NCBI RefSeq assembly: GCF_023278565.1
Contig: NC_064675.1
Location: 1,426,001-1,490,000, forward strand
Origin: Colletotrichum lupini
Taxonomy: Eukaryota; Ascomycota; Sordariomycetes; Glomerellales; Glomerellaceae
Length of the DNA: 64,000 nt
Direction: 5' to 3'
Part shown: positions 8,236 to 47,221 of the stretch, piece after piece
How the letters are laid out: each line of letters begins with the position of its first letter
Position numbering within the stretch: the stretch's first letter is position 1
Made by a program: the position numbers and the translations under genes
The notes under the pieces: model-generated
Databases searched by the model: none
What the model saw: only the letters and a program-made list of their open reading frames with translations
What the model was told of the DNA's origin: nothing

Positions 8236-9336
8236 TCACGACGCATTCGTGCTCACGTCATTGAAGATCTTCTTCTTCACCTCCATCGCAACGAGACCAG
8301 TCCGCTCCTGCATCGCCACAGTATTGCTGTCCTTCACGAGCTTCTCGAGCAGTCCGTCGACCTTTTTGCTGGCCGCGCCGACACCACCCGTTCCCGGAGC
8401 ACTCCGTCCCTGACGGGCGACTTGTGTCGTAGTCTCCTTGATCTTGGATGCGAGATCAAGCATCTGTTTGTTTCCGTAGTCGCGATTCGTAATGAGCGGG
8501 CTTTGGCTCAGCGTCTGTACCCAGTACTTGTGCCACAGCAGCTCCAGCATCTGGGACTCAAGCGTGCTCTTGAAATGGGACACCTCGAGGCTGTAGTACT
8601 TGTTCGCGTGAGCGCCGAACTCTGCCGCCTTCGCCAGAGGGACTTCCTGCCATCCGTCGCTGGTAACGCCACTGCCGCTGGCCCCGCCCTCCTTCTCCTT
8701 GATGTAGTTCTCGGGGTACGTTCGGAAAGCCCCAATCTCCACCTTGCCTGCGTTGATGGTGCGGTCAGGATCGATGACGACGGCGAGGAAGGGCTCCTGG
8801 AATTGCTGCTGTAGCGCCTGGGTGCCGACGTCGATGCCGGACAGCCAGCAGCCGTAGCCTGGATGTGAGTGATACCATCCGACGACGTTCTCCATTCTGC
8901 CCTGCTCACGGCAGAGGCTGAGGTATTCGACCATGTATTCTTCGGCGTCGCCCTGGGCGTTGACGCGCGTCTCGGTTCCCTCCACGGGTAATCGGAAGGC
9001 ATCTGTGACGATGAAAGTGTCGCCATTGACATAGCCCTGCATAAGACCCATCACCTCGAGGTTGCCGCCGGAACGGGCGTGCATCACCATCTTGATGAGA
9101 GCCACGGCGCTTATGCGGACATTTTTGAAGTGGTTCGGGTTCGCGGCCCACGGGCGGGCGTTCATCTGTTCCTTCTGGGCATCGTGGTCGAGGTTGTAGA
9201 GAGCGTCGCGTTTGGTGTCAACCAACTTTACGTTGTTGTCGAGCTCTAGAGCAAGTGGTCAGCTGTATTGAGCGCGGCAATGGCGACAGTGTAAAAGATT
9301 TCACGACATACCCCACGACTTGAGAGCTGTCTCCAT
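8236..9336 (-). CDS. csnE/CSN5: COP9 signalosome subunit 5 (JAMM metalloprotease, deneddylase)
   Basis: This is the catalytic subunit of the COP9 signalosome, which removes NEDD8/Rub1 from cullins and so regulates SCF-type ubiquitin ligases in nucleus and cytoplasm. Two exons: 9312-9336 and 8236-9245, separated by a 66-nt intron (GTATGT...TAG). They give 344 residues, a normal fungal length. The start is the only ATG after an in-frame stop and gives METALKSW spliced to ELDNNVKLVD, the usual CSN5 N-terminus. The JAMM metal site is complete: Glu72 in EVMGLM, then HSHPGYGCWLSGID with His134, His136 and Asp147, at the spacing known for CSN5. The gene is a single-copy housekeeping gene and I see no link to its neighbours. 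It appears intact. Confidence 0.96.
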
Positions 9337-10916: not shown

Positions 10917-12026
10917 TTAAGCGGTGAAAGCGCGAGCCTCAACGGCGGCGTACTCGTCGCGCTTAGCGGCCTTGGCCTTCTTGGTCTTCTTGCCGCGGTG
11001 ATGGGGCTCACGAGCCTCAATGGCGTGCTCGGCAGCGTCCTCAGAAGCGAACTCGTCGCGCTTGGCAGCCTTCGCCTTCTTGGTCTTCTTGCCGCGGTGG
11101 TGGGGCTCGCGGGTCTCGACGGAGTGCTCAGCGGCGTCGTCGGAGGCGGACTCGTCACGCTTAGCAGCCTTCGCCTTCTTGGTCTTCTTGCCGCGGTGAT
11201 GGGGCTCGCGAGCCTCAATCTCGTGCTCGGCAGACTCGATGGCTTCGTCGGAGGCGGACTCGTCGCGCTTAGCAGCCTTGGCCTTCTTGGTCTTCTTGCC
11301 GCGGTGGTGAGGCTCGCGGGATTCGACATCGCGGGCCTCGAGGGCCTCGTCGACAGCAGACTCCTCACGCTTGGCGGCCTTGGCCTTCTTGGTCTTCTTG
11401 CCGCGGTGGTGGGGCTCACGAGCCTCGATGTCACGAGCCTCGAGAGCCTCGTCGACGGCAGACTCCTCGCGCTTGGCGGCCTTAGCCTTCTTGGTCTTCT
11501 TACCACGGTGGTGGGGCTCGCGGGCCTCGATGTCGTGAGCCTCAAAGGCTTCATCGACAGCAGACTCCTCACGCTTCGCGGCCTTAGCCTTCTTGGTCTT
11601 CTTACCACGGTGGTGGGGCTCGCGGGCCTCGATGTCGTGAGCCTCAAAGGCTTCATCGACAGCAGACTCGCGCTTAGCGGCCTTGGCCTTCTTGGTCTTC
11701 TTGCCGCGGTGGTGAGGCTGAGAGGTGGTGTTAGTATATACATAACTCTTTGACCTGAGCACATTTGAGAAGATTAAATCTTACCTCACGAGCCTCGATG
11801 CTGGCAGCCTGGGGCGCAGCTAGGGCAGGCATGGCGAGTGCCAAGGCGGGAGCCTATTTAACCTCATATTAGTCCTCGCGTTCCCACACTTTAGACTCAT
11901 CGTGGAAGGCAAACTTACTACATAGCGTCTGGCGACCTGACCCGTGGGGATGAGGTTCAACGACTGAACACCTTGGACGGCAAGGATGCTCGCCAAGAGG
12001 AAGTGGCCAAAGGATGGGTAGTGCAT
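10917..12026 (-). CDS. Secreted Kex2-processed tandem-repeat protein (candidate RiPP precursor or repeat effector)
   Basis: Three exons (11919-12026, 11785-11853, 10917-11717) with introns of 65 and 67 nt, both phase 0 with good GTAAG donors and CTAAC-like branch sites, give 325 residues. Residues 1-22 form a signal peptide (hydrophobic LLASILAV core, likely cut after VQS). The rest is eight copies of PHHRGKKTKKAKAAKR, identical at protein level. They are joined by acidic linkers of 17-20 residues such as ESAVDEAFEAHDIEARE. Each block ends in Lys-Arg, the Kex2 cleavage signal in the secretory pathway, so processing would release peptides of about 33-36 residues with an acidic front half and a very basic back half. 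This layout defines fungal Kex2-processed repeat proteins, which include dikaritin RiPP precursors and some secreted effectors. It is divergent from the UstYa-type oxidase at 14618. The invariant block has no Tyr, Trp or Phe, unlike known dikaritin cores. Confidence 0.85.
10959..11717 (-). repeat. Coding tandem repeat, eight units of 99-108 nt
   Basis: Eight units encode the invariant 16-residue block plus a variable acidic linker. At DNA level the block varies only at synonymous positions (for example CCG/CCA, GCC/GCT and CGC/CGT choices), while linkers differ in length and residues. Protein identity with synonymous drift points to selection on the peptide and not merely to recent duplication. 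The third exon begins exactly with the first block. Confidence 0.92.
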
Positions 12027-14617
12027 CTTGAAAAGAATGATTGGCTGACCGGCAGCAAATGACAGCAACTGGATTACAAGAGAAAGGAATGAAGGGTCGC
12101 GTCAAGCGATCAGGGGCCAACAGTGGAATGAGATGTACGGATGGTCAGGCAATGGTGGGCTGATGAGCGGGTTTGAGAAGATATTATATCTTGCTCAACG
12201 ACCTCTGCGTTTTCGTCCCTCCACGGCGAGTTGACAAGGCACCCCCCCTTTTGGCACGGCACTTGGTCCATTCGCGAGTCTCCATTCGACTTAGTGACGA
12301 AGGCATGGGTTGAAGCCCCAAGTTTGGACGAAAAGGGCCTCGACTAGAAGGCGTCAAACTCTGATCGGCCTGCCGCGTAGGACCAGAAACGTCTCAGAGT
12401 CGGGATACCAGATGGAAAGGGTCTGAAAGGGGGTGGAGAGACAGGGCCATGGGCTATGACGGCTTGCGATAGTTGCTCGGACTGAGCTAGCCGCAAAAGA
12501 TGGGACTCGTTCAAAACTCGTCGGGGCTACGCTGATGATGTCGAACAGCACCAAGATGCTGGACGCGGGGAGGCTGGAAGGGGAGGTTCCTGGACTAGGA
12601 TATGAGCCGAATCCCGCGCTTGCGGTATCGACGATGGTTGTCGTCCTCCACTTCGAAAGCTCGTATACGGAGTACTCCTCGTACCAAGCAATGAGAAGAC
12701 AACAAGCATACTACCTTATTCCCTTTAGACATGAACATGGATGTGGTACTGGACTCGCTTGCAGTTTCAGTTCCAAGAAGTTCCAAGACTACCCTGGGCG
12801 GTCAGCAGACGGGGAGCACACAGGGGAAAGCGAGGGTGTTCTCTCGTTGTGCCTGGCGTCTCGTTCGACAGACCCCAACACGATCTGATGCTAAGCCTGA
12901 TCGACAGGACGTTACGGAAGGTCTTCGCGACGCCGCAGTGTGTCGGGGAAATACGCTGGTAGGGTGGCCCGGTGATGATCCATCAGCCATCTCCTGTCGT
13001 ACTGTTACTCGTACGCTAGAGAGGATGAGCCGCACAAGGGACCTCTGATACAGCCACAGTCCCAGAATGCCAAGAACTGACAACAACCGAACCTGGGTCA
13101 AGATTAAAGAGGTGTACCGACTCAAAACCGACCACTGTTGGTGTCCTGTGGTGGTGGATATTCCATGAGCAATGCGGCATCAAGTTGCCGGGTTTTGAGC
13201 CTCATAGGCGGCCCGGGCTCTTCCCTGGCGCCTTGCGGCGTTCGTGAGTGGTCGGTGCATCCCCTGTGGGATGGGCTGGAGGCGCTGGAACGTGGTGACT
13301 GGTCGTGGGATCTCCCCCGCAAGCCACACCCTGTCGCACCAAACTCCGCGTTTCGACACACCCCTGTTCTGAGACACCGCACCAACGCCTCAGCTGTGCC
13401 ATTGCCAGGGGCCCCTTTTTCTTTGCTTCTTTCTCTCTCTTTGAGTCTCTTCAACTCTTGACTATGGGAAGAAGGTTCTCAGCTCTCTATCACATTCTCG
13501 AGGCAGAAAGCCTGCTGCAGGGACGGAGACAGGGATACAAGAGCCAGGGCTTGGACCTGACTAAACCTGACATGAGTAGCCCTGCAGATGTTACCAAGAC
13601 TGCACGAAATCCCGTTCATGGGATTGTTCATCAACAAGGGCCAGCCCAATCATCGCCGTGGTTATTGGACGAGAGCGGCTAATTATTTCCGACCATCTAT
13701 TATCATCCCTCACTGCACGGCGCACGTAGCACGCAGTATTGCCCATGATCACTTGAACCAAGGCTTGCAACTTGACCGAGTCGACTTACATTCCCGGTCC
13801 CACCCCCGGCTGTGACGGACTCGACCTCTTTTCTGTCTCGTCTATTCTTGCTTGGGATGATCGGCTTCTTGGCCTGTGCCGCAACTTCGCAACGAAGATC
13901 AAACAGCCCAAACGTTTCTGGTGGCTGGATGACATCTCGCTAGCTGGCAATTTCCATCCGACTATCCAGAGCCTATGCCACTATGGTCCATGGATCCCAA
14001 GTATCCCAACGGGGCGAGGTTGCATTGCACACACCTGCCAGACGGCGACTTTTCCTCCCTCGGTCTTGAGCGAACTGGATCCCCTTCCAAAGTCGAGTCC
14101 TGTCATTGTTCGAGTTGGGACATAGTTGCGGCGCGTAGCCTCTCGCTGACGCCGCCTCTTGCCCGTGCCCTCTCTCTCCCTCTCTCCCTACCGAGTCTCC
14201 TCTTCCCACACCCATCCCATCGACTAATCGACTTGGACGGTCTGTGATCACCCATTAGTTTGGTAATCTGATTTTCCGCGCCCGAAGCGATCGTCTTGGC
14301 ACTCGTCTCTTCTTACCTTCTCAGAGAGCTGCTGGCCTTGCCTCCGAACTGTTTCCCCTCCCCTTCTCCCCATTCTGTGCATACCACTCTATCATTCTCC
14401 CTTCTTGTCTCTTTCTTGTTTGGTCATTTTCAATTCCCATCATCTGTTTCTATACCCGACTTGACGTCGTTGTACCATTCCCTTGCTGTCAAATTCGTGA
14501 CAGCATCCCTTCTTTCGCCTTCTATTCTTTCTTAATAAGGCACCTGGCGTGCTCCAACTTAACCTTCCGGTGCTACTACCTTGCCCGCCGAAGAGGGTCC
14601 CTCTCTCTTTAATAATT
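12027..14617. promoter_or_regulatory. 2.6-kb divergent intergenic region between repeat precursor and UstYa-type oxidase
   Basis: The two genes are transcribed away from each other, so this segment must hold both promoters. Long CT-rich tracts at about 13416-13450 and 14130-14540 lead up to the oxidase start and look like fungal promoter or 5' leader DNA. Open frames inside (for example 13138-13461 +) have no recognisable features. I could not identify defined operator sites. Confidence 0.45.
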
Positions 14618-15678
14618 ATGTCTTCAGAAAAGGTCTACCGGTCCGTACCCCACGAGGAGGAGGAAGTCGAGAGTCTCGCCGGAAGCCTCAACACGGAGAG
14701 CACGGAGAACGTAGAGGCCGCCACAGGAGGAAACGAAGCGACATGGAGGCGGATGAGGCTCGGCGATGAACACCCGTGCAAAGAGAAGGCGCGGCGGCTT
14801 CTGCGGTATTGGCCTTGGGCTCTTCACGCCGTGCTTTTGACGACGTCTGTCACGCTTTTTGCTGCATCATTCTGCCTTCGCTATGGCAACACCAATAAGG
14901 ACGATACTTGGGTGACGGAGAAGTACTCGTCATGGTGTAAGAATCATCGCCCAATGACTATCACCCTTCATCATGGCTGACAGTTCATAGCCCCTGCTGC
15001 AGGAATCATCAAGTACCACACCGAAAGGTACAACCTGACGCCCATTATGGACTGGTCACCCTTTGTCGGTGCTGGATACGAGATCGATAGAGCATGGGAT
15101 CACATCACAAACAATAGTAAGAAGACGACCCAATGGCTGGTGACGTGATGATAGAAGCTAATGAGGCGTAGTCGGCGACCAGATGATCTCGCGCGCCGAG
15201 CTCGACAAGCTCGGTCTCGATCCCAAGTCAATCAAGACCACCAACGCCGTCACGGGTGAGGAAGGTTACCGTGTCGGCCTCGAGGTGTTCCACCAGCTTC
15301 ACTGCCTGAACCTGCTCCGTCAAGCTACGTACCCGGAGTACTACTCAAGGAAAGAAGTCGGCGGCGACGTGGCCGTTGAGCACAAGGACTTGAGAGGACA
15401 CCTGAGTAAGTCACCAGGATTCATGAGCCACGAGCATGAGTGGCAAGAATGTAGTAAAAACCGCATGGCTAACGAGCTCACTAGACCATTGCATCGAAGC
15501 CCTGAGATTGAACCTGATGTGCGAAGCCGACATTGGCGTCTTCACATTCAAGATGTACCCGGATCTCCCGCTCGAGGGCCACTGGCCCGACTTCAGCACG
15601 CTGCACACCTGCCGCAACTTCAACGACATTCGGGACTGGGCGCTGACACATTCGGTGACGTTTGAGAATGAGGAATAG
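14618..15678 (+). CDS. UstYa-family (DUF3328) oxidase, RiPP/mycotoxin biosynthesis type
   Basis: Members of this family catalyse oxidative cyclisation or other oxidation steps in fungal RiPP pathways such as ustiloxin. Four exons (14618-14936, 14991-15116, 15172-15405, 15485-15678) give 290 residues, normal for the family. Introns are 54, 55 and 79 nt. Residues 1-66 are hydrophilic and about 67-90 form one membrane helix (WPWALHAVLLTTSVTLFAAS), as in a type II membrane protein. The family hallmark is two HxxHC motifs. Here they are HQLHC (189-193) and HLNHC (225-229), the second formed across the last splice junction. AWDHI and ELDKLGL segments are also family-typical. No truncation is seen. 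It lies head to head with the Kex2-type repeat gene, which would be the expected substrate precursor. Substrate and product are unknown. Confidence 0.9.
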
Positions 15679-16982
15679 GCTTTTTCGGCACAACCCCAGT
15701 TGGAAGGAATCGAAAATGAGTTTTGAGTTGCGGAAAGGTGGTGGGCAAGGCAGGGTAACACAGCAAGGGTTGACCTTCATACATATTAAAAAGCATAACA
15801 GCGGCAATGCAGTCCGCAAACGGATAACATTTTCCCCAGAGAACAAATAAAGCCTCAGCAAAGTTTCCTGTTCGCATACGCCTCAAATTTTGTCGGGGAG
15901 GATGCAGAAGGTTCTCGAGTTTGCTCTTATTTAGAATTAAAGGTTGGAATGAGTTTGAAGGTGCCGGACTTAATCTCTCACTGAGTTGCATTAGCTCCCG
16001 CTGTCTATCGAGAGCCAAACATATTACAACTTCCGGCCTTCCCCGTCGTCAACAAGCGCCACCTGGCAACAGTTGGATAATCGATCAGCCCTGATGGTCT
16101 AGCGGTATGATTCTCCCTTAGGGTCTTCACGACACGTATGGGAGAGGTCCCAGGTTCGAATCCTGGTTAGGGCCCAATTCTTTTGCATTTTGCGGTTCTG
16201 AACACTGGCGATAGGCGCTTCGTGTGCTGTATTTTTGCCTCTGACAATTTCGTGATGTCTGCGACATCCGCGGGCTAATTGTGGTGGTGGGCGCACTGAC
16301 AACTCCCGATTACAAAACATCTCTCTCCACAGCTGCAGTCTGCGAGTCAATCCCTATAGTACGCGGTATAACTCGTGATACGACTGGCCAGCTTCGCGAT
16401 ATACTTTTTGCCTTGTCCCTGCGCCGAAGCTTCTGAGACGGCCGTAGAAGATGGGTGCAAGACAGAAGAGCCGCGGCGCATGTCGTTGCCGAAAGTCTCG
16501 TGTGCGCCCAGAACTCTGACAGGCTTGGCTTACATGAGGCAGGCAACACAACCTTTAGGCGTGTCCCGTGGCACCCGCGGTTCACGTCATGGAAGTTACA
16601 CAAGACAGAGGGAATCCCAGGAGCACGTTTGCCTTGGCGGTTCGTTTCTTCTTCGGTTCCGTGGTACAAAACTTTGTTTGCTTAAGAGTCGTGATCCCCT
16701 CGTTTAGTAGTTCATCATCCCTGCCCCGTCGGCAAGTGTTTTCCGCGCGCGTTTAATGATGTTCCCGGTGATGTAGCGAGGTAAGTGAATCACAGAAACA
16801 CATCCGTGGACCGCGAGTCGATGTAAATCATCCAACATAAGCTTTCATTGTGCCTTGTGAGGCGACCGCTGTCTAGCGGGGGTATCAACAGTTTCTATAT
16901 CCATACAACCAACGCGCGCAAAAGTCTATCCCTTTTTCCAAATTACTCCGTCCCCTCTCTACCAAGGCAAGAAAGGGCTCGT
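15679..16982. other. Intergenic region containing a tRNA
   Basis: Apart from the tRNA at 16087-16173, I see no gene. A frame on the minus strand at 16099-16350 is a translation of the tRNA and its flank and is not coding. Confidence 0.6.
16087..16173 (+). tRNA. tRNA-Pro (AGG) with a short intron
   Basis: Acceptor stem GCCCTGA pairs with TTAGGGC at the 3' end. The T-arm contains GGTTCGAATCC. The anticodon stem CTCCC/GGGAG encloses the loop TTAGGG + T, giving anticodon AGG for proline. About 15 nt (TCTTCACGACACGTA) interrupt the loop between positions 37 and 38, the canonical place for nuclear tRNA introns. Without the intron the gene is 72 nt. Structure assigned by eye. Confidence 0.9.
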
Positions 16983-18625
16983 CTAAGCCTCCTCATCCTT
17001 CTTGTCCTGGTCGGTGACGATGCCCATCTTCTTGTTCATGAGCTCATCGGGGTCGCCGGCGCCGGCGTCCAGGACCTCGAGGTTGCCCGCGGCGTCCTTG
17101 GTGCCGGTCCGGTAGCCCGAGTGGCTGCCAAAGACGTACCACACGTAGCCAGTGAGGATGGCGGTCGTGGCGAGGAAGGCGAAGATGGTCCAGTTACCCA
17201 TGCTGTACATGGGGGAGTCGGTGCTGGGGAAGAGGAAGGGGGCGGAGATGCCGCCCGTGTTGGCAATGGCGATCATGCCGCCGGTCGCGAGCGCGGTGGC
17301 GGTGGAGCCCTGGACGGTTGCGGTGCGGTGCTATTTTGCTTATTAGTCTACTTTTTCTTCTTTTCAATGCCTCAATGGAGATTCGTGAACTTACAGCAAC
17401 GAAAGGGAGGACGGCGGCGTTGGTGCAAGCGATGATGCACACGGCAAAGTAGCGCACACCCCAGTGCTTGACGATGGCCAGGAGGAGGTATCCCGTCGCG
17501 ACGAAGATCAAGGCACCAATGACGTGGCGAGAGCGCTCCTTGGTCCTATCGCTGTGCAGACAGTTGCCGATGATGATGAACATGGCAAAGACGTTGGGCG
17601 GGACGGTGAGCAGCTGGGCGTTGTATCCCTTGAAGCCGAGCGAGGAGACGATGGTGGGCGCGAAGTAGCCGAAGGCGTTGAGGGAGTTTGTCATGAGGAA
17701 GTACATGACGGCGAAGAGCCAGAAGTACGGGTCGATGATGGTCTTCTTGGCGACCTTGCTGTCCCAGTGCTTGTCGGACATGGACGGGGCAAAGGGGCCG
17801 AGGCGCTTGACGGCGAAGGCGCGCTCCTCGGGGGTGAGCCAGGCGGCGGTCTGGGGGTAGTCGGGGAGCATGAACCAGACCATGACGCCGACGATGACGG
17901 CGGGGATGCCCTCGAGGATGAAGAGCCACTGCCAGCCCGTGAGGCCGCCCTTGCGGTTGAGGAAGGAGATGCCGGTGGCGAGGAGACCGCCAAAGGCGCC
18001 GGCGACGGCGACGGAGGAGGCGAAGATGGCCATGCGGGTGGCGCGCTCCTCGGGCTTGTACCAGAAGCAGAGGTACATCATGATACCCGGGAAGAAGCCG
18101 GCCTCGGCGAGGCCGAGCATGATGCGGACGGCGAGGAGGCCGCCGTAGGTTGTGCAGGCGGCGGTGCAGATGGTGACGATGCCCCAGGAGACCATGATGC
18201 GGGAGATCCACTTTGAGGGGGAGAAGTACTTGAGCATGATGTTGGAGGGGAACTCCATGAGGACGTAGGGGACGAAGAAGAGGGCGACGGCGACGTTGTA
18301 GCGCTGGCCGGTGAGGTTGAGCATGGTGACGATGTTGTCTTCGGGCTTGTCGTTGTTGAGGGTGCGGGCGTTGCCGAGGTTGACTCTGTCGAGGTAGTCT
18401 GCGATTCTCGTGTTAGTGGATGTTTGATGGCAACTTTCTCGTCTTTTCTCGTGATGCTGGAGAAAACGTACTCAGGAGGTAGGTGATGCAAATCCAGGGA
18501 AGGATTCTGAGATCCTGCTTGCGGACGATGCGGCGTTCCATCTCCTTGTCGGCAAGGTCGACGGTCTCGAGGTCGGGCACGTCCAGGGACGGCGCCGGGG
18601 CGAACATGGCCTTCCAGTCGGGCAT
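16983..18625 (-). CDS. MFS transporter, anion:cation symporter (Dal5/allantoate permease-like) family
   Basis: A plasma-membrane carrier of the family that imports allantoate, nicotinate, pantothenate and similar organic anions by proton symport; the substrate cannot be told from sequence. Exons 18472-18625, 17395-18398 and 16983-17330, with introns of 73 and 64 nt, give 501 residues. The start gives MPDWKAMFAPAPSLDV. The cytosolic N-terminus ends in LRILPWICITYLLNYLDRVN, the family signature spanning helix 1 and split by the first intron. About twelve hydrophobic segments follow, with GLAEAGFFPGIMMYLCFWY in the first half. The tail is short and charged. Codons are strongly GC-ending. It lies downstream of the UstYa-type oxidase beyond the tRNA. 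It could serve that cluster or be unrelated; I favour unrelated because export pumps, not Dal5-type importers, usually accompany toxin clusters. Confidence 0.9.
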
Positions 18626-22464: not shown

Positions 22465-24668
22465 ATGATATGTGAAATTTGCGTTGGGGCGTTCCAACAC
22501 CGGAAGGGTTGGGTTCGCGATACCGACGAGGGCTCCGAGCCCACCATTTTACTTGCTCATCACGAATCGGTCGCGAGCCTTGAAGCTTCAGCCCTCGACG
22601 CTTGCGAGACATGTCGTCCGTTCTGGCTCCAGATCAGCGAGGAGGACCAGATTAGACTGAGAGAGTTCGACGCCACTTGGACCTCACGCCCTAGGGCAGG
22701 CGGTGCAAAGTCCTGGACACCTGGGCAACGGTTGGACGAGTTTGATGGTCTAGTGACTATGGGCGCAGTTGTCCTTCTCGAGGAACCGAGTCTAAAAGCC
22801 ATTGGGTCTGACTTGATGATATCCATTTCATTCGAGTCGGGATTCACGGATGAAATTCATTTTGATCAAAAAAATATTTCTGGTACTTATGTGGTACAGA
22901 GAGGTGATTGTAAGTAACACTGCCGGGTTGATGAGCCGTCAGCTTTTTCTAATGTGGTCGGCCACCAGACAAGGATGCCGGAAAGATGATACCGTTCTCC
23001 AGTAACAACACGGACTCCGAGGAAGCGTGGGCTAAAGCAAACTTATGGATGCAAACCTGTTTGTCTACTCACACGGCTTGCAACGTTGAGCTGAAAGCGG
23101 ATCCGTGGTATCCAACTCGATTGCTTGACCTCAAGGCTGGTTGCGAGGGAACAGATGTTGTCCGTCTGGTAATCACGGCAGAACACCGGCCTTCGCACAA
23201 TGATCGCTATGCGACCCTGAGTCATTGCTGGGGTTCAGCCCAGTTTCTGCAACTGAAGAAAGCCACGTGCGACGATTTCAAAAGAGGCATCGAGCTCTCC
23301 AAGCTTCCAAAGACATTCCGTGAAGCCGTGCAAGTCACTCGACAACTAGGCGTGCGGTACCTCTGGATCGACTCGCTGTGCATATTCCAGGATCGAGACG
23401 ATCTCTCCGACTGGCTGGTCGAAGCGGGTTTGATGCACAAAGTGTATTCAAACTCATTTTGCAACATCTCTGCAGCGGGAGCACGCGATAGTTCCAAGGG
23501 CCTTTTCTTCAAGCGGGATCCGAGAGTGAGCCTTACTACCGACATGTGCCTCAATGCAGAGGGGTTTGGACTGGAAACGGAATACACCGACTGCAGCATT
23601 ATCGACATGTCATTTTGGGGCCATGCCGTTGGGCAGTGTCATCTTAATAAGCGCGGCTGGGTTCTACAGGAGCGTCTGCTTTCACCACGCGTTCTCCACT
23701 TTGGCCGCGATCAACTCTTCTGGGAATGTAGAGAGCAAGCGGCGGGCGAGTGTTATCCAGAGAAGATGCCGGAAATCTTGGCAAACAGCGTTCCGACAAA
23801 ATTCAAGAGACTCAGTAAAGAAGCTTACGGCCCTGATGCAATGTCGCGAGAGAGAGAGCCGGACGACCCCACGTTCTACCATCGAATTTGGGATTTAATC
23901 GTGAGAGCGTATGGAAGCACCCGCTTGACTATGGCCTCCGACAAATTGTTGGCTCTTTCAGGCATAGCTCAGCATTTCGAAACTCTCGTTGACGACACCT
24001 ATGTCGTGGGGATGTGGCGGAAGCATTTAGCCAGCAATTTACTATGGCATGTTGATCAGGAGACGCAGGTCGACGGCTCTCCATCTATTCGGCCCGAGGT
24101 GTACAGGGCCCCATCATTCTCTTGGGCCTCAGTCGATGGCAAAATCATAACTGGACCCCTGATTGATCAATCGAAACTGCTAATAGAGGTGGAAGACGTC
24201 CGAATCGAGTACGTGTCGAAAAACAAGACGGGTCTGGTAAAAGGAGGCCATGTCGATCTTAGATGTTGTGTGCTGCCCTTCGAAATGTTTGTGAAGTCCG
24301 GCAGCCAACGCCGGTTCCTCTCTCTGAAAGTCAACGGTGTCATTGTCATAGCATCGAGGAAAGATCCGCAACGGAATATTGGTCCTCTGGTACACATGGA
24401 CATTGGCCAGGAAAGCTTCAACGACGAGAATACCACAGGATCGCTATACTACATTATCGCACAGAAGCAGGATGAACCTGATGGCTTTGTGAGGTGCCTT
24501 CTGCTGATGGCCGTAGATGAGAAGAGGAAGGTCTTCAAGAGGATTGGGCTGGCAGTAACCAACGATGCAGAAGAGATTGAGATGCTGCAGAATGGGACAC
24601 ATAACGCCGATGGAAGCTTATCGAACAATTGTGGTCTTGATGGAATTAGAACCATACGAATCATCTGA
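22465..24668 (+). CDS. HET-domain (heterokaryon incompatibility) protein
   Basis: HET domains trigger programmed cell death in non-self recognition between fungal individuals. Two exons, 22465-22909 and 22969-24668 (59-nt intron, GTAAGT...CAG, phase 1), give 714 residues. The start is the ATG giving MICEICVGAF. The N-terminal 150 residues carry paired cysteines (CEIC, CETC), usual upstream of HET domains. The domain begins near residue 229 with YATLSHCWG. It continues through LPKTFREAVQVTRQLGVRYL, WIDSLCIFQD and the KVYSNSFCNISA motif, and ends with RGWVLQERLL...LFWEC. The C-terminal 300 residues have no domain I recognise. The gene converges on the large ATPase gene with 151 bp between stop codons. 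No disruption is seen. The partner or allele specificity is unknown. Confidence 0.95.
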
Positions 24669-27800: not shown

Positions 27801-30513
27801 AGAAGCCCCATTTTGAATGATATGAGGCAGAATGTGCGGCTTCATCGATTTGAAGGAAGCTGATTGTTGAATCTCCAAGGTACGAAGAGACAACAGCCTG
27901 GAGCTCTAACAGTGGCAGAAACGTCTCCGCGAGTGGGTAGTCCCTGCCGTCCTTGCATGTGATGTTGAGGTCTCGAAGGTTGCGAAGGAATTTCGAGGTC
28001 CTCGAGTCATCATGATTCAGCAGAATCCAATGATGTTGAAGTGCCTCGATGAAGCTTTCGGGACGAAAAATGCGGACAAAGTCGAGCTCGGGAGAAAGAC
28101 TTTCCGGAGACGTAGAAGAGGTTAGTCTCAGCCGACGGCGTATTCGCAGAACACGCTCAAGCCAATCAAACCATGCCTGCTCCGATCCCGCCGGTGTCTC
28201 TGGAGGGTGTTCAGAGTACTGATCGTGCAAAAATGACACAAAGAACCCATCTGGCTGATTTGGTGTAGGCTGTAAAAGACGGCAAGGCTCATAGGGACCG
28301 CTTGTGGCGAGGTAGACATCTTGGCGATGAGGTAGCTGAATCTCCATTGTCTGATCAAAGACAAAGAGCTTAGTGATTTCAGTTGAGCTTTCTACACCGG
28401 AAGAAGTATGGTGGTAAGATGAATATAGAAACTTCATGTTGTTGACGGATGCTAGCAGAGTACCCTCGGTCTTCGAAGTCGGGACTGGAGCTTCAAAGAT
28501 CAATTGTTGGACCTCTTCAACCATTGCCGTTTGAACACCGAGCAGTTGAAAGAGCTTGTAACGATCATCGACAGCAGATGCCTCTGGGCAGATGAGAGAC
28601 AAGGGAAGATCTGCGGGGATTTCAAGACCATTCCGACAGAAGGGGAAGTAAATGGGTCGTCTGTTTTGATTAATCGAGGTCCAACTGCCATCCCTTAGAG
28701 GTATGATGTCCAAAGTGTGAATTCTCGCTAGGCTCTGTGGGGACGCGGTAGCGACGAGTCTCTGAATCGTACTGGCAGCTAGTGAATGCCATTGCGTACT
28801 GGTGGACGGATTCTTCATTCTTGATTTACCAGCCGGTTGGCCAAGGTCCCGTTCCATCCGAGCTATTCTCTCGTCTGCTGACAGCCATTTCAGACCGTAC
28901 GGCTCAAGTAAGCTTAGATCCTTGATCTGGTATTCTTCGGCAACATAGATCTCAGCATCAAGGTCGTCGAATAACGGAGTCCCAGCTTCGTCGAGCCAAT
29001 TGGACTGTAGGCGACGCAGCGAGTGAATGCCGCCCAGGTGACCACTCCCCCTTGTGCGAAGAATCTTGCTCGTCTTGATACGGCTTACAATGTCTTCGAG
29101 CAAGCCACTCCAGAAGCTATCCCAAGGGTATGAATGTCTCTGTGGAAGCCACCTCATCCATTGAAATTGCAACATGGGATGTTGGCACATCTCCTCCACG
29201 GCTTTGAGGAAACAAGTCGCGATACCATTTCTGATTGCCAAGTTACGTGCAGATGAAATCACAATTCCTTCGCGAGACGAGTTGGTGACGAAATCAGCTT
29301 GGATGATGAACTGCTTGTAATCAGCACAGGCTTGAAGCAATGTTGTGGATGGAAAGTTCTTTGCTGCAAAGGCCTACTTACCTTGAAGCCCAAGGGCATC
29401 ATTGGAAGGAACGCGAAAACTGGCTGGTTATCAATGATGGGGGTGTAGTCATCGGTAAGTGGGAAAGCCAGGATAACTTCAGTCTCAGCATCCGCACGGC
29501 CATTGCCTTCAGAAAGCTCCCTATTTTCGTTTGGAGGAGCATCTCGAATCACTTGACGTGTGACGTGATGCTTTCTCTGGACAGTCTCGCCGGAAGAAGA
29601 CTCACGGTCGGATAGCCATACTCTCTCTATGAGAGTGTTCGAACTTGAAGTTGAGAAGGAATACTCCACTCGTTTTGTTTCCGTGTCATTGTCGTCGTGA
29701 AACTGGATTTCGATGCGTCGCAGATTCCTCAGAAAAAGCAAAACTGTGATTGGAAGGTTTTCGAACTCTCTGTTAATTTCCTCCCTCTGCCGCGCCGCCT
29801 CTGAGAGAGAAGTGTCATCGTACTGATGAAGATGAAGTGTAATGGAACTTGAAGCTTGTTCACACTGCGGGATAAAGTCTGGTTCCCAGACAGGGGTAAC
29901 CATCCCCAACCCACTGTCGCCCTTTCGATGGGTGAAGCTGAAGGAAAAGTCGTTCGAGAGAATGTTGACTTTGTAGGCAGCCATGAAGACGGATTTGAAG
30001 CCGATACCTTTTTCCCCGATGTAACCATGACTGCGATTCTTTGAGCTCTGGCCAATCGCACAGATGGCTTTGAGGTCGTGATAGGTGAAGCCATCCTCGT
30101 TGCACTCAATTTTGATACGTTCTCGGTACACACTAAACTTTACAAAAGGCTCAACACCCCGACTGTTTGCTGCAACGAACTTATTGTCATCGGCGTTTTG
30201 AAGAAGTTCGAAGACAAAGCGGGCATGACTAGTGTTGAGATTCTTTGCCAAGCTTCAGTCACGATTAGCAGCTGTCGAAGTTGCAACTGAGCAGACCTAA
30301 TTGATGAGCGGTTGTAGCATACGTCAAAATCGAGGAACCGATCAGTTGATCTTTCTGTAATAGAGCCTTTTCTACGACAGATCGAATGCGTTGATTCATG
30401 GCTCCAATCTCCGTCAAGTCGCTCTCAGAAACAATGCCATGCTCCTCGGCAATCCCTTCCACGAGTTCCCTTGCGGTAGGTTGGTGGGCAGTTCGCCCTG
30501 GCGCAGCTGCCAT
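24820..30513 (-). CDS. Large HSP90/sacsin-like ATPase with NO VEIN-type C-terminal domain
   Basis: Eight exons (30323-30513, 29382-30252, 27620-29310, 27167-27556, 26493-27113, 25492-26407, 25094-25402, 24820-25020) keep one frame over 1,729 residues. Introns are 53-89 nt. Residues about 65-150 hold a GHKL/HSP90 ATPase fold: FELLQNADDN (78-87, the Mg/ATP-binding Asn helix), NEDGF (115-119) and YIGEKGIGFKS (141-151, the glycine-rich lid). A long middle part without recognisable domain includes GFKFIIQADF and PLIFVPNGE. Residues about 1560-1685 resemble the NO VEIN C-terminal domain. They include DNWQSTMRKYV, ETADIVYDD, YLIEVKTT and FFVSKYQYNR, and the D...EVK pattern resembles a PD-(D/E)xK nuclease core. 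Related fungal proteins are uncharacterised. The convergent HET gene next door suggests, but does not prove, a shared role in recognition or stress. Confidence 0.85.
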
Positions 30514-31694: not shown

Positions 31695-34600
31695 TACCCC
31701 CTAATTACTATTACTAAGGAGCTATTATACTTAAAATAGAATTTTTAAATACCCTTATAAAGGCCTAATTTAATTAAATATAAATTAAAAAAAAATAAGT
31801 ATAAGGGATATATATTTTTTAAACCGCGTTTATTATAAATATATCCCTTTATTTAAAATAAATAGAATCCTAATTTAGAATAGTACGTATTTTACTATTT
31901 TTAATATATAAATTACTAAGGGCGAGGCTACCTAGCTACTTTACGTATATCTAAATTCTCGTAATATTATTTAATTATTATTATTTTTTCTTTTTTTAAC
32001 CTCTTATAATTATTATAAATACCCCCGTTTATTATATACGCGCGCTTATATTATTAAATCGTTTACTAATTTTATTTTAAATGTAAATATTTAATATATT
32101 TAAAAATAATAATAAGTTTTATATAATTTTTATAATACTTCTTATATACGTATTATATAGTTTATTAAGAGTTTAAATAAGTAATAATACTAACGAGCCT
32201 TTTTAAGTTATTATCCCCCCTTATAATTTCTTATTTACTTATTAAAGCCTAGTTACTAAGCTCTCCCTCCCTGATTAAAAAAATATTAAGGTTACTAATT
32301 AAAATGCCGAGGATTTTATTAAGTTTAAAGCTCTTTTTAATAACTATAATAAAAATAATAATAAAATAAATAGTAATAATAAAAGCTCTAATAGGCTTTT
32401 ACTTATCCCCCCCTTAGAATTTAAAAATAAAAATAAAAATAGTTTAAATAATAAACCCTTTAAAAAAAGTATATTATATACTTATTATTTTAAGAGTTTA
32501 TATTTAATATTATTTTAAAATTTAAAAAAACATAAAGCTAGCTCTTTTTAAAAAGGTAATAAGAAATAAAAAAGAATATTAAAAAACTAAAGTACTCTTT
32601 TTAATAAGTATAATTCTTTTTATTATTCTAGGCCTATTTAACGTATACTTAGTCCTTAAAAAGCTTAAAAAAGAGGTTTTTAAAGAACGGGAGATCTAGT
32701 ACCTACCCTATTTTAAAATAGCCCTTTAATATACCGACCCTAAGAATAGTAATTATTATTTTATAAAAAGTAGTAGTTAGTATATATACTACTTTAATAG
32801 CTATTTAGCTATTTAGCTAAAGAGTATATTAATATATTAGTCGTTTTATAATTAATAACCTAGGCCCTTATTAAAGTTATTATAAATAGCGCTCCCTTTT
32901 TTATAAATATATTATCCTTTTTTATTATTAAAAAGCGTATTTTGCATTATAGTTTTAATAAAATATTACTAAGCTTTATAATATCGTTTACCAAATATAT
33001 AATAATTAAAAAATATATAAAAATTATATTAGCTTTTATATAGAGGACTTTTTTAATATATACCCCTAGTCCTCTCTCGTACTTATTATAGTTATTTATA
33101 ACTAACTTTTTATTATATTACTCGCTTTTATATTCTAAGTTATTAGCTTAATAATCGTTCTAGCTCCTATACCCCCTACTACCCCCGCTACTTCTAGTTT
33201 TATAAATTTTAAAATATATAAAATACGTTTTTTAATACGTATACTAACCCTCTTTTTTAATAACGCTATATTCTTAGTAATTACGTATTTTATAAACTAA
33301 GAGTTTAAATAATAAATATAAGCCCAGGTCTTATTTATATATATATATATCTTCTAAAATAAGGTTATTTTAAGAGTTTAGGCCTTTAAGCTATAAAAAG
33401 TTTTTATTTTATTTATTTTAAGCCTCTAGGCCGCATTTTAAGTTCTATTTATTATTTATTTTTAGGTATTAAATCTTTTTAAGTATAGCCTAAATTAATT
33501 ATTTTTAACTATTTTAACTATTTATAATAACTTTTTATATATTATAAAAGTTAAGAAGTATATAAAAATGTTCGAACTTAGCTCGTAAAAGGTTTTTAAT
33601 AAGTCTATTTACTAATATATATTTTATTAATATATAAATAACCTCGAAACTATTTTTAATATACTCTTATTTTAACTATATATTTTATATATTAATATAA
33701 TAAAGTTAAGTAGCTATTCTTTTTCTTTTTCTTATAATAAGTTAAATCGTTTACTAATTATTATAATTAACTAACTCTACTTTTTCTAAGTTAAGGGTAA
33801 TATTTTTAAAAAAGCGCTTTAGAATTATAGTCTTTTTTACAGTTTTTTTAAAATAAAAAAGCTTAGCTTCGGTAGTTAATATTATAATTATTACTTAGTA
33901 TGCTAATTTTTATTAAATTAGGCTACTAAAAAGGAATATTATATATCCCTAGGATAATTATTATATTACTTTATTATTTATAAAGCTAGTATCTCTAGCT
34001 AGAAATAATAATTATATACTTAATATACTACTATAATAGAGTATAAAATATCTCGTTATATAAAAATATTAAATATAATAATTAATTACTTTAACATAAA
34101 TTACGCTTAGGTTAGTTAGGAACCGTAATAATTACGAATAAATAAAAATAATATCTAGTTTAATTATAATAGTTATATAAAGTATACTCCCGACCTTTTT
34201 TTAATAACTCTTTATTTCCTCTTTTATTACCTACCCCTCGTTTAGTTTAAACTTTTCTTAAAGAAGAGGGGTAGCTAAATATAATAAATTTATAAGGTCG
34301 AAGCGCTTAGTAACTCGCTCGATATATATATTATAAATAAAATAAACTTTATAAATAGTACGGTTTTATAAAATCCGCACTCTAAAAAAGTAATTAATCG
34401 GTTTATTCTCTTTAAAGTTAATATATTTTTTTATATTATTAACGATCCCTTAAGCTACTTTTTAGTCGTTTTAATAATATAAAATAATAAAGTTATTAAT
34501 ATAAAATACTAATATTACTTTCCTATTTACGGTTTAATAAATATAGATCTCTTTATAACTATATATTATACTTATACTACGGAATATAAAAATAAAAGTT

Positions 34601-36905
34601 TAAAACTAGAGAATTAATAAGTCTTAGAGGCTATATAGAGCGCGTTAGAGCTTATTTACTTTATTAATAACTTTATATCCCTTTAGGAATTTAATAATTA
34701 CTAATTTCTCGCTCTTAAAAAGTATATTAAGGAATATATTAATAATATTATATTAGTTTACTCTAAAGTTAAATTAAATAGTTATTATTATTATAAGCCT
34801 AAAGGCCTTTATAATAAGTATCGAAACGTACGTATTTTATAAAAAGTTAAGTAGTTATATATCCTTTTTTATATATATACGTACCTTTACCTTACTAACC
34901 TCGTTATTAACGTTATATTTATAAATATATACCTATTTTAATAAAAATAAGATCCCTTATTTAAAATTATAATTAACCTCTTTTTATATACTAATATCCC
35001 TTAGCTTTTTCATTTCTATATTTATAATATCCCTAAGTAGCTTTTATAATTATAATAGGAGATATTTAATATTACTAAACTTCTTTAATAAGCTTTAGAA
35101 ATTAACTTTAATAAGTTATAGTTTTTAAACTCCTCTAGAGCGCTCTAAATAAGTCTTATAAACTACTTTTTTTATTAGTTAATAAAGTATTATATATTTT
35201 CTATTACTTTCTTCTATAGCTTTTTACTAATTAAGTATAAAAAAAAAAGTAGTCCTAAAAACGGTTATAATAATTACTATCTCTTATATTTAAATATAAG
35301 AGCGTTATAAAAATATTATTATTAAAGTATTATAGAGGTCTACGGGCCCGGTTTAAATATTTAAAACCTAACGGAGCTTTACTTAGTACTTAATAAAATA
35401 GTTTTTATAAGCTCTATTCTTATATAATAATAGAGGTTTATTATAAGGGTTCTTTACTAACGTTAACTTTAATATTAGGAATTATTTTTTTTATAATTTG
35501 TATTTCGTTTATTACGTACTCTAGCGTTTTACTAAGAGCTATTAAAAATTAAAAGCTTAAGAACCTTTATAATATATATAAGCGCTTATAAAAAGGATTA
35601 TAAACTACGTAGAGCTATTTATAACTTAGTTATTATATCTCTTTCTTTACCCCTATTTCTAAGCTTATATAAGGGGGTTATTTTAAAAGTTAATAATAAT
35701 AATAATAAAACTATATCAACCTTTTTAACCTTATTAACTATACCCTAAAGTATATCTATCAGTTATTTAGCGTCCTAAATAATTAAAAATTTAATAATAA
35801 TACTATCCTTAATTATAAATCTTTTTTAAATACTAGCATTTCCAAAGTCTAAATCTACTTCCCTAAATACTTAAACTAACTTATTATTAATATTAAAAAG
35901 TTCTTATATTTTTTAAATTACTAAATTTACTTACTTACTTATAATAGCTTACTCCTCGTATACGGGATTATAAAAAACTTCTTTATTAAACTTAATATTC
36001 TTTATAATAAATACTTACTTAAGCGCGGGTACTTAGACCTTATATAAGTTATACGTTTTTAATATATATCTAACTAAGTATTTTATATATTTATAAAGAA
36101 GTACTTTAAACTCTTTTTAATATATACCCCTCTTATAATTCCTATAAAAAGGGTATACTTAGTAATTATATATATAAAAGCTATTAAAATATAGAGTAAC
36201 CGGTTTAAAATCCCGTATTTAATAACCCGTTTATTATTAGTATTAATACCGCTTTTACTAATTAATTTCTATTATAATAAGTAAATCTTTTTTATTAGCC
36301 TCTTATAAAGTAATATTATAAATAAAAATTATTACTAATACTATTTCGTCCTATAAATTTATAAAGAGGTTTATAAAAAAGCGTATTTTATAAGCTTTAG
36401 TAATTACGAGTTAACTTATTTTTTTAGCGTTACTTATAAGTTCTTTTATATATAAAAATAGAAGTTCTATTCTAATTCCTAGCTCGCTATACTATATTTT
36501 ATATATATATTTAACGTTTATAATTAAAAAAGCGGTCTTATTATTACTTTTAAAAAAATAAATTAAAGTCCCTTTTTAATAATAAATCGCTACCTCGAGG
36601 CTTTATAATACGAAAAGTACTTTCTCTTTTATTTTAATCTTTAAAAAGAACCCCCTAAGCTACTTATTATATTTATTAAAAGCTATAAGTATATATTATT
36701 ATTTACTAAGAAATAGTTCGAAGTAGAAGAGATCTTAATATATATAATACTATAGCTATAAGGCTCTTTTTAAGGGTAGTCCTTTTAAAATTACTATTTT
36801 AGCTTTAAATAATATATATATTTTATACTTAAGTTATAATAAAGGTTTAATACGCATACCTCGAGTCTTATATAATAATTAATAAAAAGTATTAGGTCTA
36901 AAATA
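31695..36905 (-). pseudogene. Copia polymerase remnant, left internal part of outer element
   Basis: AT-rich DNA with stops in all frames. On the minus strand it retains reverse transcriptase (about 34200-35400, including an FYINNFIIL stretch where FYVDD is usual) and RNase H sequence (about 33780-34060). Reading 5' to 3' on the minus strand, RT precedes RNase H, the copia order. The integrase and gag portions should lie toward higher coordinates, beyond the nested element. Exact domain borders cannot be set by eye. Confidence 0.75.
36901..36905 (+). repeat. Probable target-site duplication AAATA, left copy
   Basis: Matches 44979-44983 immediately outside the other gypsy LTR. The low sequence complexity of the surroundings makes this less certain than the other duplications. 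Confidence 0.55.
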
Positions 36906-37101
36906 TATAATAGATTCGGGATGCGGCTGGCGATAGGACGCCGATAACTCAGCGACCGGTGTACAGATCTTATTATAAAAGAACTTTTTAAGAAGTAAAG
37001 CCCTTATAAAGGACTCTATAAGCTTTAGTTTTATAATATACCTATACCTATATTATAACCTCGCTAATTAAGTACTTATAGCCTAATCTCTTATAATTCT
37101 A
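36906..37101 (+). repeat. 5' LTR of gypsy element
   Basis: 196 bp beginning TATAATAGATTCGGG, matching 44781-44978. Every difference I checked in the first 60 bases is a C/T or G/A transition, and this copy is the more GC-rich one. Confidence 0.88.
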
Positions 37102-40100
37102 AAGCTTTTACTTTTACGGAGTAATTAATATAAATAATAATAAATTATAAAAACGAACGGAACGTTGATAAAACGACGCTTAGTTATTAGTAAAGAGCCG
37201 TTAGTACTAACGAGCTATAGCTATTTAGAGTTGATTACTTAACCCTATTCCGTCTAGGAGAACGAGCCTATTATAAGGCGAGTCTTACTTAAATACTAGC
37301 GTCTATAGAAGAACTAAATAAAAAAGACAATCGGGGTAGATTACTTTTATAGGCTAGTTACCTTATTAATACCCCGAAGACCTTATTTATTATAAACGGG
37401 GCGTTTATTAATAACTAATTACCGGATGTACGAGGTTAAGGTGCGTATAAAGGCGTAAGTAGTACTAGGATAGCTAGTTTAGTAAACCCTATAGGCCTAA
37501 TAATAACCTACTTCTATAAAACGATAAAAATAATAATTAAAAATTAAAACTAAGAACGGCGTCAATACAAAGAGCTTGTCTAATAACTTACTAAGCGGCT
37601 AGTAACGTATTTAAATTAACGAGAATATAAAAAGCCTCCTTTCTATAACTATAAACCGATCGGAGAAAAGTCTATAAGTACTTAAATAGTAAACTAGATT
37701 ATTATTATAGAAATAAATAATAAGCTTTGCGCAAAAAGTATTATAAAATAGTATATCGAATAGGCCCTATTTAAAATATCCCTATTACTATAAACGTAAT
37801 AGCATAATTATAAAAAGAGCCTCTAAGATCCCCTCTCTTAGGGCAACTTCTTAGCGTTTATTTACTAATAATACGTAGACCCCGAGACTTAGGAACGGGA
37901 ATACTATAGAAAGCTAAGGATAAAGAGGCTAAAAGAGGGCTAGACCCCTACTTAGTTCTTCACTAAGTAATTAGCAATTTATTATAACCTAAGTATAAAA
38001 AATATAAAGAATTTAAAAGTAGAGGTATACTAGTTCTTTTTTAGACTACTATCTTAGCTATAGGACGATCTAATTTATTATAAGGTCTTAATTAAGAAAG
38101 CACGCGATATAGCCCACGAGGCTAATAAATTATAGTCGTTAAATTGGTAAAAGGGTAGCGACTAGTCGTAAAAAGATAGTAAGAAAAGGCTATATCCGTT
38201 ATTAGAGTAACTGCGTTAAATATCCCCCTTTTATAAAAAAAAGAGCAGGGAGAGCTTTAAAGGGCTAGGCTCTAAGGACTCGCTAGGAGTAATATTATAA
38301 AAGCTATATAATAAAAGTACTCGCGCCGAGCCATCGTAGAAGCGTTATAATAATAATATTAAGTACTTTACGTATAATAAGATAGGCTATATATTTAATA
38401 AGTACTAAAAAAATAAGTCGGGAAATAGGGGCGATAATAAGCTAACGTACCCCTAATCGAAGCTAACGTTAATAACTATTTAACGGGTTATTACTAAGCC
38501 GAGAGTTATAAAGGTCGACTCGTTAAAAAACGAGTAAGCGTAAGTAATATACTTAATACGCTTACGCTAAGTATTAAAAGGGTATTAATAAAAATAATTA
38601 TAAAGGGCAGGGCAATAGTTTTACGAGGTATTACCAAAAGGCTAATAGAAGTTAATATAGATATATACTCTAAAATAGACATTATTAGCACTAGGCTCGT
38701 AACCTACTTAGGGTTAACCCCGGCTACTACTATAGCTCCCTTATTAAGGGACTTTTAAGGTAAAGCCGTAGGCTAGGGGAAAGCTTACTAGTTAACGCTC
38801 TTCCTTATTAACTACTATAAGTAGCTAAAGAAGATTCGGCAACTATTCGCTATAGTTAATAAGGATAAAAAAATAGTAAACCTCTTATTATTATAACTAT
38901 CGATAAGCTAAGAGGGTATTCGTATTAATATAGCGACGAATATATAGTCGTATAAGCCTATCTTAGTCGCTAAACTAAAGGCGATAGCTCGTAATATTAT
39001 TAAAAATTATAAGAGGGCGTATATATTATATATCGCTACTATAAAAAGTATCGCGGGGGTAACAGAGACTAAACTACGAGGGGGTCTATTACTAAAACTT
39101 TAATTAGAAATAAAGACGTTTAACGAGTAGTTAGTAAAGGGACCGTAATTATATAGTAGGGTAGAACACTTTATCGACCTAGTTCTAGGTACTAAACTAT
39201 TATATAGTCCTATTTATCCGTTAAATAAAAAATAACTTAATAAGCTTTGCGCGTATATTACTAAAAACTTAGTAAACGATCGCATTATACCTTTAATTAA
39301 TAAGGCTAGGGTACCGATCCTCTTCGTACTAAAAAAGGATAGCACGCTACGCCTCTATATAAACTACCATAAGCTAAATAAAATAACTATAAAAAATCGA
39401 TACCTACTACTACTCATTAGCGAGCTCCTAAATAGGCTTCGCAGAGCGAAATAAATCTTAAAAATAAACATTAAGGATGCCTACTACTATATCCAAATTA
39501 AAAAAAAAGACCAATAAAAAACAGCGTTCCGGAGCTAATATAATTACTTTAAGTATACTATTATACCTTTCGGGCTAACGAACGCACCCGCAACGTTCTA
39601 AGTATATATTTACTAAGCGCTCGCTAACTTACTAAATACTTACTATATAATATATATAAACGATCTAATAATCTACTTAATAATAAAGGAGTAGTATACA
39701 GAGGATATTAAAAAGGTCCTCCGACGTTTACGTTTATATAGGCTTTTTATTAAACTATTAAAGTGCTCGTTTTATTAAAAGAGGGTCGAGTTTTTAAGTT
39801 ATATTATTATACTAAAAAGAATCGAAATTAACTCGTTGCGAGTACGAACGATTACTAATTAAAAGGCGCTAGAGTCTATTAGGGATATCTAAGTATTCCT
39901 AGGGTTTTATAACTTCTATCGGAAGTTTATTACTAAATACTCGGGCATCGTTATACTGATAATAGTATTACTAAAAATAGAAAAGGGGTAGATAAGGGAC
40001 TTTTAGTAGACTAAGGAAGTAAACGAGGCGTTTAATTAATTAAAAGTCGTTTTTACCTCGGTAACTATACTTATATACTAAAACCTATAACGTATTATAC

Positions 40101-42450: not shown

Positions 42451-42794
42451 AGCGTAATCCTTAAGAAAAAGATATAGTATTATAGCCCTTAGTAATACGT
42501 TACTAAGAGATTGCTAAGATCTAGCTACGCAGGGGGAGTAACCTATATAATACTAATAATAATAATAGCGGCTCTAGCGTATACTTCTAAAGCTTAATAA
42601 TTGGTAATAGTAATCCGCTCGGTAAGTAAAAAGCGGGGAGGCTTCGTATGCATACTTAGCTAACTACTTAAAATAAGGCCGTTAACCTTATTAATACTAT
42701 AACGGGTAAAAAGGAGGTAGTTAAAGTCGTATAGAGTATTATATATATTAGTAATAGCGGTTCGCAGAGCGTTCGCTACCTAGTTACTATTAGA

Positions 42795-42882
42795 GGCTAT
42801 AATAAGAAGTATAACGGGAGCTATAATAAGAGGCATAACGGGAGCTATAATAAGAAGCATAACGGGAGCTATAATAAGAGGT
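42795..42882 (-). repeat. 24-bp tandem repeat inside gypsy element
   Basis: Between three and four copies of a 24-nt unit containing ATAACGGGAGCTATAATAAG. On the minus strand they read as an 8-residue repeat (PLIIAPVM-like) without stops, in the zone of the suspected antisense frame. Confidence 0.8.
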
Positions 42883-42899
42883 AAAGTAAGAAGTAAAGT

Positions 42900-44400: not shown

Positions 44401-44780
44401 TACTAAATAAAAAGAAAGAAGAAAAAGTAAATACGTAACTAGTAATAAATAAAAAATCTTTTATTATAATTAATAGCTTAGTAATAATAATAACCGCGAG
44501 GTTAAGCGGGCTCTTATATATTACGACGGTCGGAATACTTTATTACGAATATATATTACTAACTTAATAACTAGTTAGTGCGCTATTACTAAATAATAAT
44601 AACAAGGCATCCGTTAAATAAGGAGATAGGAGCAATGCCTTGTTCCTAAGTAAGAAAGGATATTATTAACGCCTTACGGAATTTATTACGAATAACGACG
44701 TTAATAGCTTTATTATTAGTATTAAAAAAAGATATTACGTAATGACTTTAGGGACCAAAGTTACGTAAAGGGGGAGTAAT

Positions 44781-44978
44781 TATAATAGATTTAGGATATA
44801 GCTAGCGATAGGACGCTAATAACTTAGTAATTAGTATATGGATCTTATTACGAAAGAACTTTTTAAAAAGCAGAGCCTTTATAAAGGACTCTGTAAGCTT
44901 TAGTTTTATAATATACCTATACCTACATTATAGCCTCGCTAGTTAAGTGCTCATAGCCTAATCTTTTACAATTCTCTA
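44781..44978 (+). repeat. 3' LTR of gypsy element
   Basis: 198 bp matching 36906-37101, ending AATTCTCTA against AATTCTA in the left copy. More RIP-mutated than the left copy at its start. Confidence 0.88.
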
Positions 44979-44983
44979 AAATA
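44979..44983 (+). repeat. Probable target-site duplication AAATA, right copy
   Basis: Pairs with 36901-36905. See that entry for the caution. Confidence 0.55.
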
Positions 44984-47044: not shown

Positions 47045-47216
47045 TATTATGAGTTATAATATATAATAATAAGTATATAGAGTATAATAAAAGTAGCTTA
47101 ATTATTAAAATAGAAAAAAAAAAAAAGGTTTATATATACGATATCTAAGATAGATACGTATTTTAGTACGTAACGGGCACTTTGTGAGGTGCGATTACTA
47201 TCCCTATTACGTAATA
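47045..47216 (-). repeat. LTR of outer copia element (5' LTR in element orientation)
   Basis: 172 bp. The gene-proximal third (CGGGCACTTTGTGAGGTGCG) has kept Gs and Cs that are mutated in the left LTR, so RIP was uneven along the copies. Confidence 0.88.
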
Positions 47217-47221
47217 AGAAC
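47217..47221 (+). repeat. Target-site duplication AGAAC, right copy
   Basis: Pairs with 31513-31517. Lies directly outside the copia LTR within AA9 coding sequence. Confidence 0.85.

Follow-up and report, generated by a model that had tools for sequence, protein, structure and literature searches.

A divergent gene pair for a Kex2-type repeat precursor with a tyrosine-free core and a UstYa-family protein in Colletotrichum lupini

The window analysed here is a stretch of 64,000 nucleotides of the Colletotrichum lupini genome (contig NC_064675.1; C2:1426001-1490000 in our numbering), in which a gene for a secreted-type repeat precursor on the minus strand (12026-10917) and a gene for a UstYa-family (DUF3328) protein on the plus strand (14618-15678) lie head to head, with their start codons 2591 bp apart (12027-14617). 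The original prediction for this locus, made from the letters alone, had placed the two genes at these coordinates, head to head at a distance of 2.6 kb, which proved correct.

The repeat-precursor gene was modelled with three exons, whose spliced frame encodes 325 aa, and its two introns (11854-11918, 65 nt; 11718-11784, 67 nt) both have GT...AG borders. Exon 1 (11919..12026, minus strand) carries the start codon, a signal-peptide-like hydrophobic stretch, and a VARR site; exon 2 (11785..11853, minus strand) encodes APALALAMPALAAPQAASIEARE; and exon 3 (10917..11717, minus strand) encodes the eight EPHHRGKKTKKAKAAKR cores, the spacers, and the tail, with the stop codon at 10917-10919. The protein thus begins with a hydrophobic N-terminus, in which the 12-mer FLLASILAVQGV is a putative signal peptide as judged by hydrophobicity only, followed by the VARR site, a short Ala/Pro-rich stretch, and the repeat part. 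Tandem Repeats Finder reported the array at 10952..11719 (minus strand) with a period of 102 bp and 7.6 copies. The precursor gave no Pfam match up to an E value of 1, and the gene appears to be single-copy, as a genome search up to an E value of 10 returned only its own three exons.

The eight KR-terminated repeats that had been predicted were confirmed as exactly eight identical copies of the EPHHRGKKTKKAKAAKR core, the E of the first copy being the last codon of exon 2. The commonest 6-mer of the precursor occurred eight times, compared with at most three times in 2000 residue shuffles. With at least three near-identical repeats bounded by dibasic sites (eight cores, each ending in KR), the protein has the repeat structure of a Kex2-processed repeat protein (KEP). 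Seven acidic spacers of 16–19 aa separate the cores and a 13-aa tail follows the last one; the spacers vary in sequence and length, from ESAVDEAFEAHDIEAR to DEFASEDAAEHAIEAR, whereas the core is invariant. The core is strongly basic (K6 A3 H2 R2 E P G T; charge +7), and the spacers and tail have charges of −5 to −7 and −2, respectively. This alternation of basic core and acidic spacer would also suit a secreted protein that acts uncleaved, for example in the cell wall, in which case the KR sites may belong to the basic block; we consider such a role improbable, because every core ends in KR and because an invariant core between spacers of differing sequence and length fits a released peptide better.

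Tyr, Trp, Phe, and Cys are all absent from the core, and its conserved side chains open to oxidation are the two His residues, together with Lys, Arg, Pro, Thr, and Glu. Aromatic residues occur elsewhere in the repeat part, with three Phe (residues 83, 117, and 282) and a single Tyr (residue 315). A true aromatic dikaritin whose crosslinked residue lies in a spacer (Phe) or the tail (Tyr) rather than in the core would have a precedent in victorin, which is cyclised through Phe (PMC9233826), and yet it is very improbable here, as Phe is found in only three of the seven spacers, Tyr is confined to the C-terminal tail, and neither recurs in every repeat.

Comparison of the DNA of the eight cores revealed that 8 of the 51 columns were variable, all of them at third positions and all synonymous. 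As 33 of the 153 possible single changes in the 51-nt core are synonymous, this pattern has a probability of approximately 5e-6 if the columns are independent, and since all eight variable columns are synonymous, the core peptide itself is probably under selection. In-silico cutting after KR and RR with trimming of terminal K/R yielded seven peptides of 31–34 residues, in addition to the first pieces and the tail. KR may not be the sole Kex2 site, because KK occurs twice within each core, and cuts there as well would leave ...EPHHRG, T, and AKAA. A profile search for the Kex2-type P_proprotein domain (PF01483) gave one match in the genome.

The UstYa-family gene was modelled with four exons on the plus strand, encoding 290 aa. 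Exon 1 (14618..14936) contains the start codon, the N-terminus, and the single hydrophobic helix, and is followed by exon 2 (14991..15116), exon 3 (15172..15405) with the first motif, HQLHC, and exon 4 (15485..15678), which completes the second motif, HLNHC, and ends with the stop codon at 15676-15678. Exon 3 was taken from a TAG acceptor; an alternative acceptor, with the exon starting at 15166, adds two residues. The identity of the protein, which had been proposed from its two HxxHC motifs and one membrane helix, was borne out: an HMM search with Pfam UstYa (PF11807), suggested as a check, scored 176.9 bits over residues 64-281, the cut-off being 25 (E 6.7e-52), the motifs lie at residues 189 (HQLHC) and 225 (HLNHC), and the best hydrophobic 19-mer, at residues 69-87, corresponds to a single predicted membrane helix. 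A dicopper site has been stated for the UstYa family (PMC12186524). When the protein was compared with 22 loci, 14 of them matched at an E value of 0.01 with 23–49% identity, except for two 10-residue pieces that matched at 60–70%. The search for relatives in the PDB gave one match with an E value of 0.5, which was taken as chance. Reported reactions of the family go beyond Tyr crosslinks and include desaturation in phomopsin (PMC10512285) and hydroxylation and chlorination in cyclochlorotine, and UstYa-type genes are also found in polyketide and nonribosomal-peptide clusters (PMC12048977).

The same arrangement recurs in the genome (63,443,975 bases in 12 contigs). The PF11807 search, in which scoring was limited to the best candidates, gave at least 32 match rows, merged into at least 25 genes including that of the window. 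The flanks read around the 24 other genes were approximately 10 kb on each side for 10 of them and approximately 0.9–2.8 kb for 14, and at least three similar KR/RR-bounded repeats were required by the scripts used for KEP detection. Out-of-frame images of the same repeats (the second rows of the window, L009-L011, L018, and L013) were dropped before counting, and duplicate views were merged (L004 with L018, L006 with L020, and L009-L011 with the window). Of the 24 genes, four had a Kex2-type repeat frame nearby, and all four belong to the 10 with long flanks; the 14 with short flanks may hide KEPs beyond the sequence read. These frames are located at L013:1502-2110 (C3:6856002-6856610), L018:7846-8448 (C2), L020:7939-8391 (C4), and L024:7425-7676 (C4). 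The repeat frames lie 1152, 1210, 1081, and 2070 bp from their UstYa matches, and each of the four pairs is divergent, which would happen by chance in approximately 0.4% of cases if orientation were random (one pair in four divergent). In the 259 kb searched outside the window, the four KEPs fell within the 126.7 kb lying at most 3 kb from a UstYa match, compared with none in the 132.5 kb beyond.

The sister repeats are SAGTYKR, GQDDAKAYKR (×14), AEAIPFYPKR (×9), and ADESYLPMKR. These pairs are like the window pair in being close and divergent and in having repeats that end in KR (KR and RR in L024), and they are unlike it in that all of their repeats contain Tyr (SAGTY/SVNTY, DDAKAY, AIPFYP, and ESYLPM). 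Four further divergent pairs of a KEP and a UstYa gene in one genome support the view that the two window genes work together, and it is likely that they form a functional pair of a kind already catalogued. The original prediction of a compact peptide pathway is supported as to the pairing, and its suggestion that the pathway might be undescribed is not: the architecture is not new, as Umemura (2020) surveyed it across 1461 fungal strains and reported 7878 KEPs in 1345 of them (PMC7329392).

Taken together, we put at approximately 60% the probability that the minus-strand gene encodes a KEP that is paired with the divergent UstYa-family oxidase and whose Tyr-free core peptide this enzyme modifies. 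While the genes and repeats themselves were observed, the secretion and cleavage of the precursor, the functional link between the two genes, the reaction, and whatever biological role the pair may have are inferred. In the proposed route, the precursor would enter the secretory pathway and be cut by a Kex2-type protease at dibasic sites. Carboxypeptidase trimming would then leave, in many copies, a peptide based on the PHHRG(KKTKKAKAA) unit, and the UstYa-family oxidase, with its one membrane helix, would oxidise this core peptide in the same compartment. Because the core is devoid of Tyr, Trp, Phe, and Cys, the most likely target would be the conserved His-His, by crosslinking or oxidation; otherwise, another core residue may be hydroxylated or desaturated. 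An ustiloxin-like Tyr crosslink is unlikely in the absence of Tyr from the core, and in terms of chemistry the earlier assignment to the ustiloxin-type dikaritins is not supported.

The +7 charge of the core and its lack of Tyr, Trp, and Cys would also suit linear peptides, unmodified and strongly cationic, that Kex2 releases for a signalling, antimicrobial, or host-directed role, as with alpha-pheromones and other linear KEP products, the UstYa protein having a different substrate. By the survey's own figures, a DUF3328 gene lies within 15 genes of 1758 of the 7878 KEPs (22%), and the other 6120 are without one (PMC7329392). We nevertheless regard this explanation as possible but on the unlikely side, given that the UstYa gene of the window lies head to head with the repeat gene, as in all four of the other KEP–UstYa pairs found in the genome.

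Several observations weigh against modification of the core by the neighbouring oxidase, and against His-His as its target in particular. Tyr is present in all four sister repeats and absent from the window core, and the distance between repeat gene and UstYa match is 3.1 kb in the window compared with 1.1–2.1 kb in the sister pairs, the former being measured from the start codon and the latter from the repeat frame. With matches at 23–49% identity, apart from the two short pieces, there is nothing to link the window enzyme to a known reaction. In the survey, HH was reported in 5.7% of KEPs with a DUF3328 neighbour and in 3.9% of those without (PMC7329392), and this near-equal content weakens HH as a general UstYa target. 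Moreover, His crosslinks are described as rare in ribosomally synthesized and post-translationally modified peptides (RiPPs), the bacterial lanthipeptide noursin being one case, which is made by a different enzyme (PMC10206099). It is a tentative and rather unlikely idea that a UstYa dicopper oxidase acts on histidine in place of tyrosine and crosslinks or oxidises the conserved Pro-His-His of this lysine-rich peptide, so that a two-gene pathway would yield a fungal RiPP class with His-based, possibly metal-binding rings.

The region between the divergent start codons (12027..14617) was considered for a third gene, which was rejected: its longest ATG-started ORF encodes 117 aa, and the stop-to-stop frame of this ORF, the one covered by the Pfam scan, had no match (the next ORFs in length are 105, 98, and 90 aa). 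In the window as a whole, 40 of 138 stop-to-stop ORFs of at least 90 aa were scanned against Pfam; the other 98 included the frames of both genes and several long overlapping frames, and exons shorter than 90 aa fell outside the set. The domains found were CSN5/JAB, MFS, HET, sacsin/HATPase, AA9, tannase, and a second MFS. A large biosynthetic cluster was rejected, as neither a tyrosinase nor a methyltransferase was present among the ORFs scanned. None of the 40 tyrosinase (PF00264) matches listed genome-wide falls in the window, and among these the one least distant on its contig lies more than 3 Mb off. The original remark that no tyrosinase, methyltransferase, or peptidase was found nearby held within this scope for the first two, and the JAB domain of CSN5 was the only peptidase-like domain among the ORFs scanned; the prediction that the pathway would be minimal also holds as far as tested.

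The CSN5 gene (COP9 signalosome subunit 5; 8239-9258, minus strand, from Pfam) lies downstream of the repeat gene, which places the pair near a conserved housekeeping gene. On the other side, a tRNA-Arg (CCT) gene is found just past the UstYa gene (16088-16175, plus strand), and an MFS transporter was identified by Pfam at 17197-18471. A HET-domain gene (22953-24665, plus strand) and a sacsin/HATPase-like frame (29262-30254, minus strand) are located approximately 5 kb apart. AT-rich blocks at 32000-47000 and 56000-62000, with a GC content of 0.21–0.29, combine a TpA/ApT ratio of 1.5–1.75 with a (CpA+TpG)/(ApC+GpT) index of approximately 0.1, as repeat-induced point mutation would be expected to produce. 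At the edge of an AT-rich block lies a frame for an AA9 protein (lytic polysaccharide monooxygenase; 47101-47814, minus strand), which has a GC content of 0.54 and lacks the strong index of the block. A profile search for peptidylglycine monooxygenase, prompted by the idea of amidation at 'GKK', had no match anywhere and is hence uninformative.

The pair resembles the dikaritins in having a UstYa gene close to a Kex2-type repeat precursor, and departs from them in that its repeated core has no aromatic residue, be it Tyr or, as in victorin, Phe. The ustiloxin and phomopsin clusters likewise combine a signal peptide (putative in the window), Kex2-cut repeats, and a UstYa-family oxidase, and they differ in their Tyr-Ile crosslinks, their further enzymes, and a tyrosinase in the cluster, to which none of the PF00264 matches listed corresponds in the window. 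Asperipin-2a is similar in its repeat precursor, Kex2 sites, and single DUF3328 protein (PMC7329392), and different in that its crosslinks go through Tyr. Among other repeat proteins, the core differs from all four further Pezizomycotina motifs given by Le Marquer (2019), namely DADAATXYV[A/V]D, YVW[G/A][G/S], SPPHKT, and QKLKVD (PMC6339444). An alpha-pheromone precursor was rejected as well, as the protein contains no W or C anywhere, in contrast to the Trp/Cys-bearing Sordariomycete repeats described in that paper. The core fragment HHRGKK was not found by a literature text search, which does not reach supplementary tables or papers outside the collection searched. The window pair is likely a fresh example of a catalogued architecture.

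Because the repeat is free of Tyr, the accepted Tyr chemistry of UstYa enzymes cannot apply, and with a small pair, a single-copy repeat gene, and four Tyr-containing sister pairs as controls in the same genome, the locus lends itself to studying what these enzymes do without Tyr. A 2022 review put the number of reported dikaritins at only five (PMC10512285), compared with 1758 DUF3328-linked KEPs in the survey of Umemura. In that survey, the DUF3328 gene count peaks at the position adjoining the KEP, and Tyr is found in 65.6% of the repeats of DUF3328-linked KEPs compared with 38.2% of the others (PMC7329392). Its KEP types G-3 and G-8 resemble the window pair in having HH with P in the repeat and, in 57 of 64 G-3 members and 45 of 49 G-8 members, a DUF3328/UstYa gene at most 15 genes away; they occur about once per strain, and G-8 includes Colletotrichum (PMC7329392). 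Since each core contains PHH and the UstYa gene lies at a distance of 2.6 kb, the window pair agrees with the published description of G-8 and is a candidate member of that type, and if the His reading were true, the types with PHH in the survey would share this chemistry across many Ascomycota.

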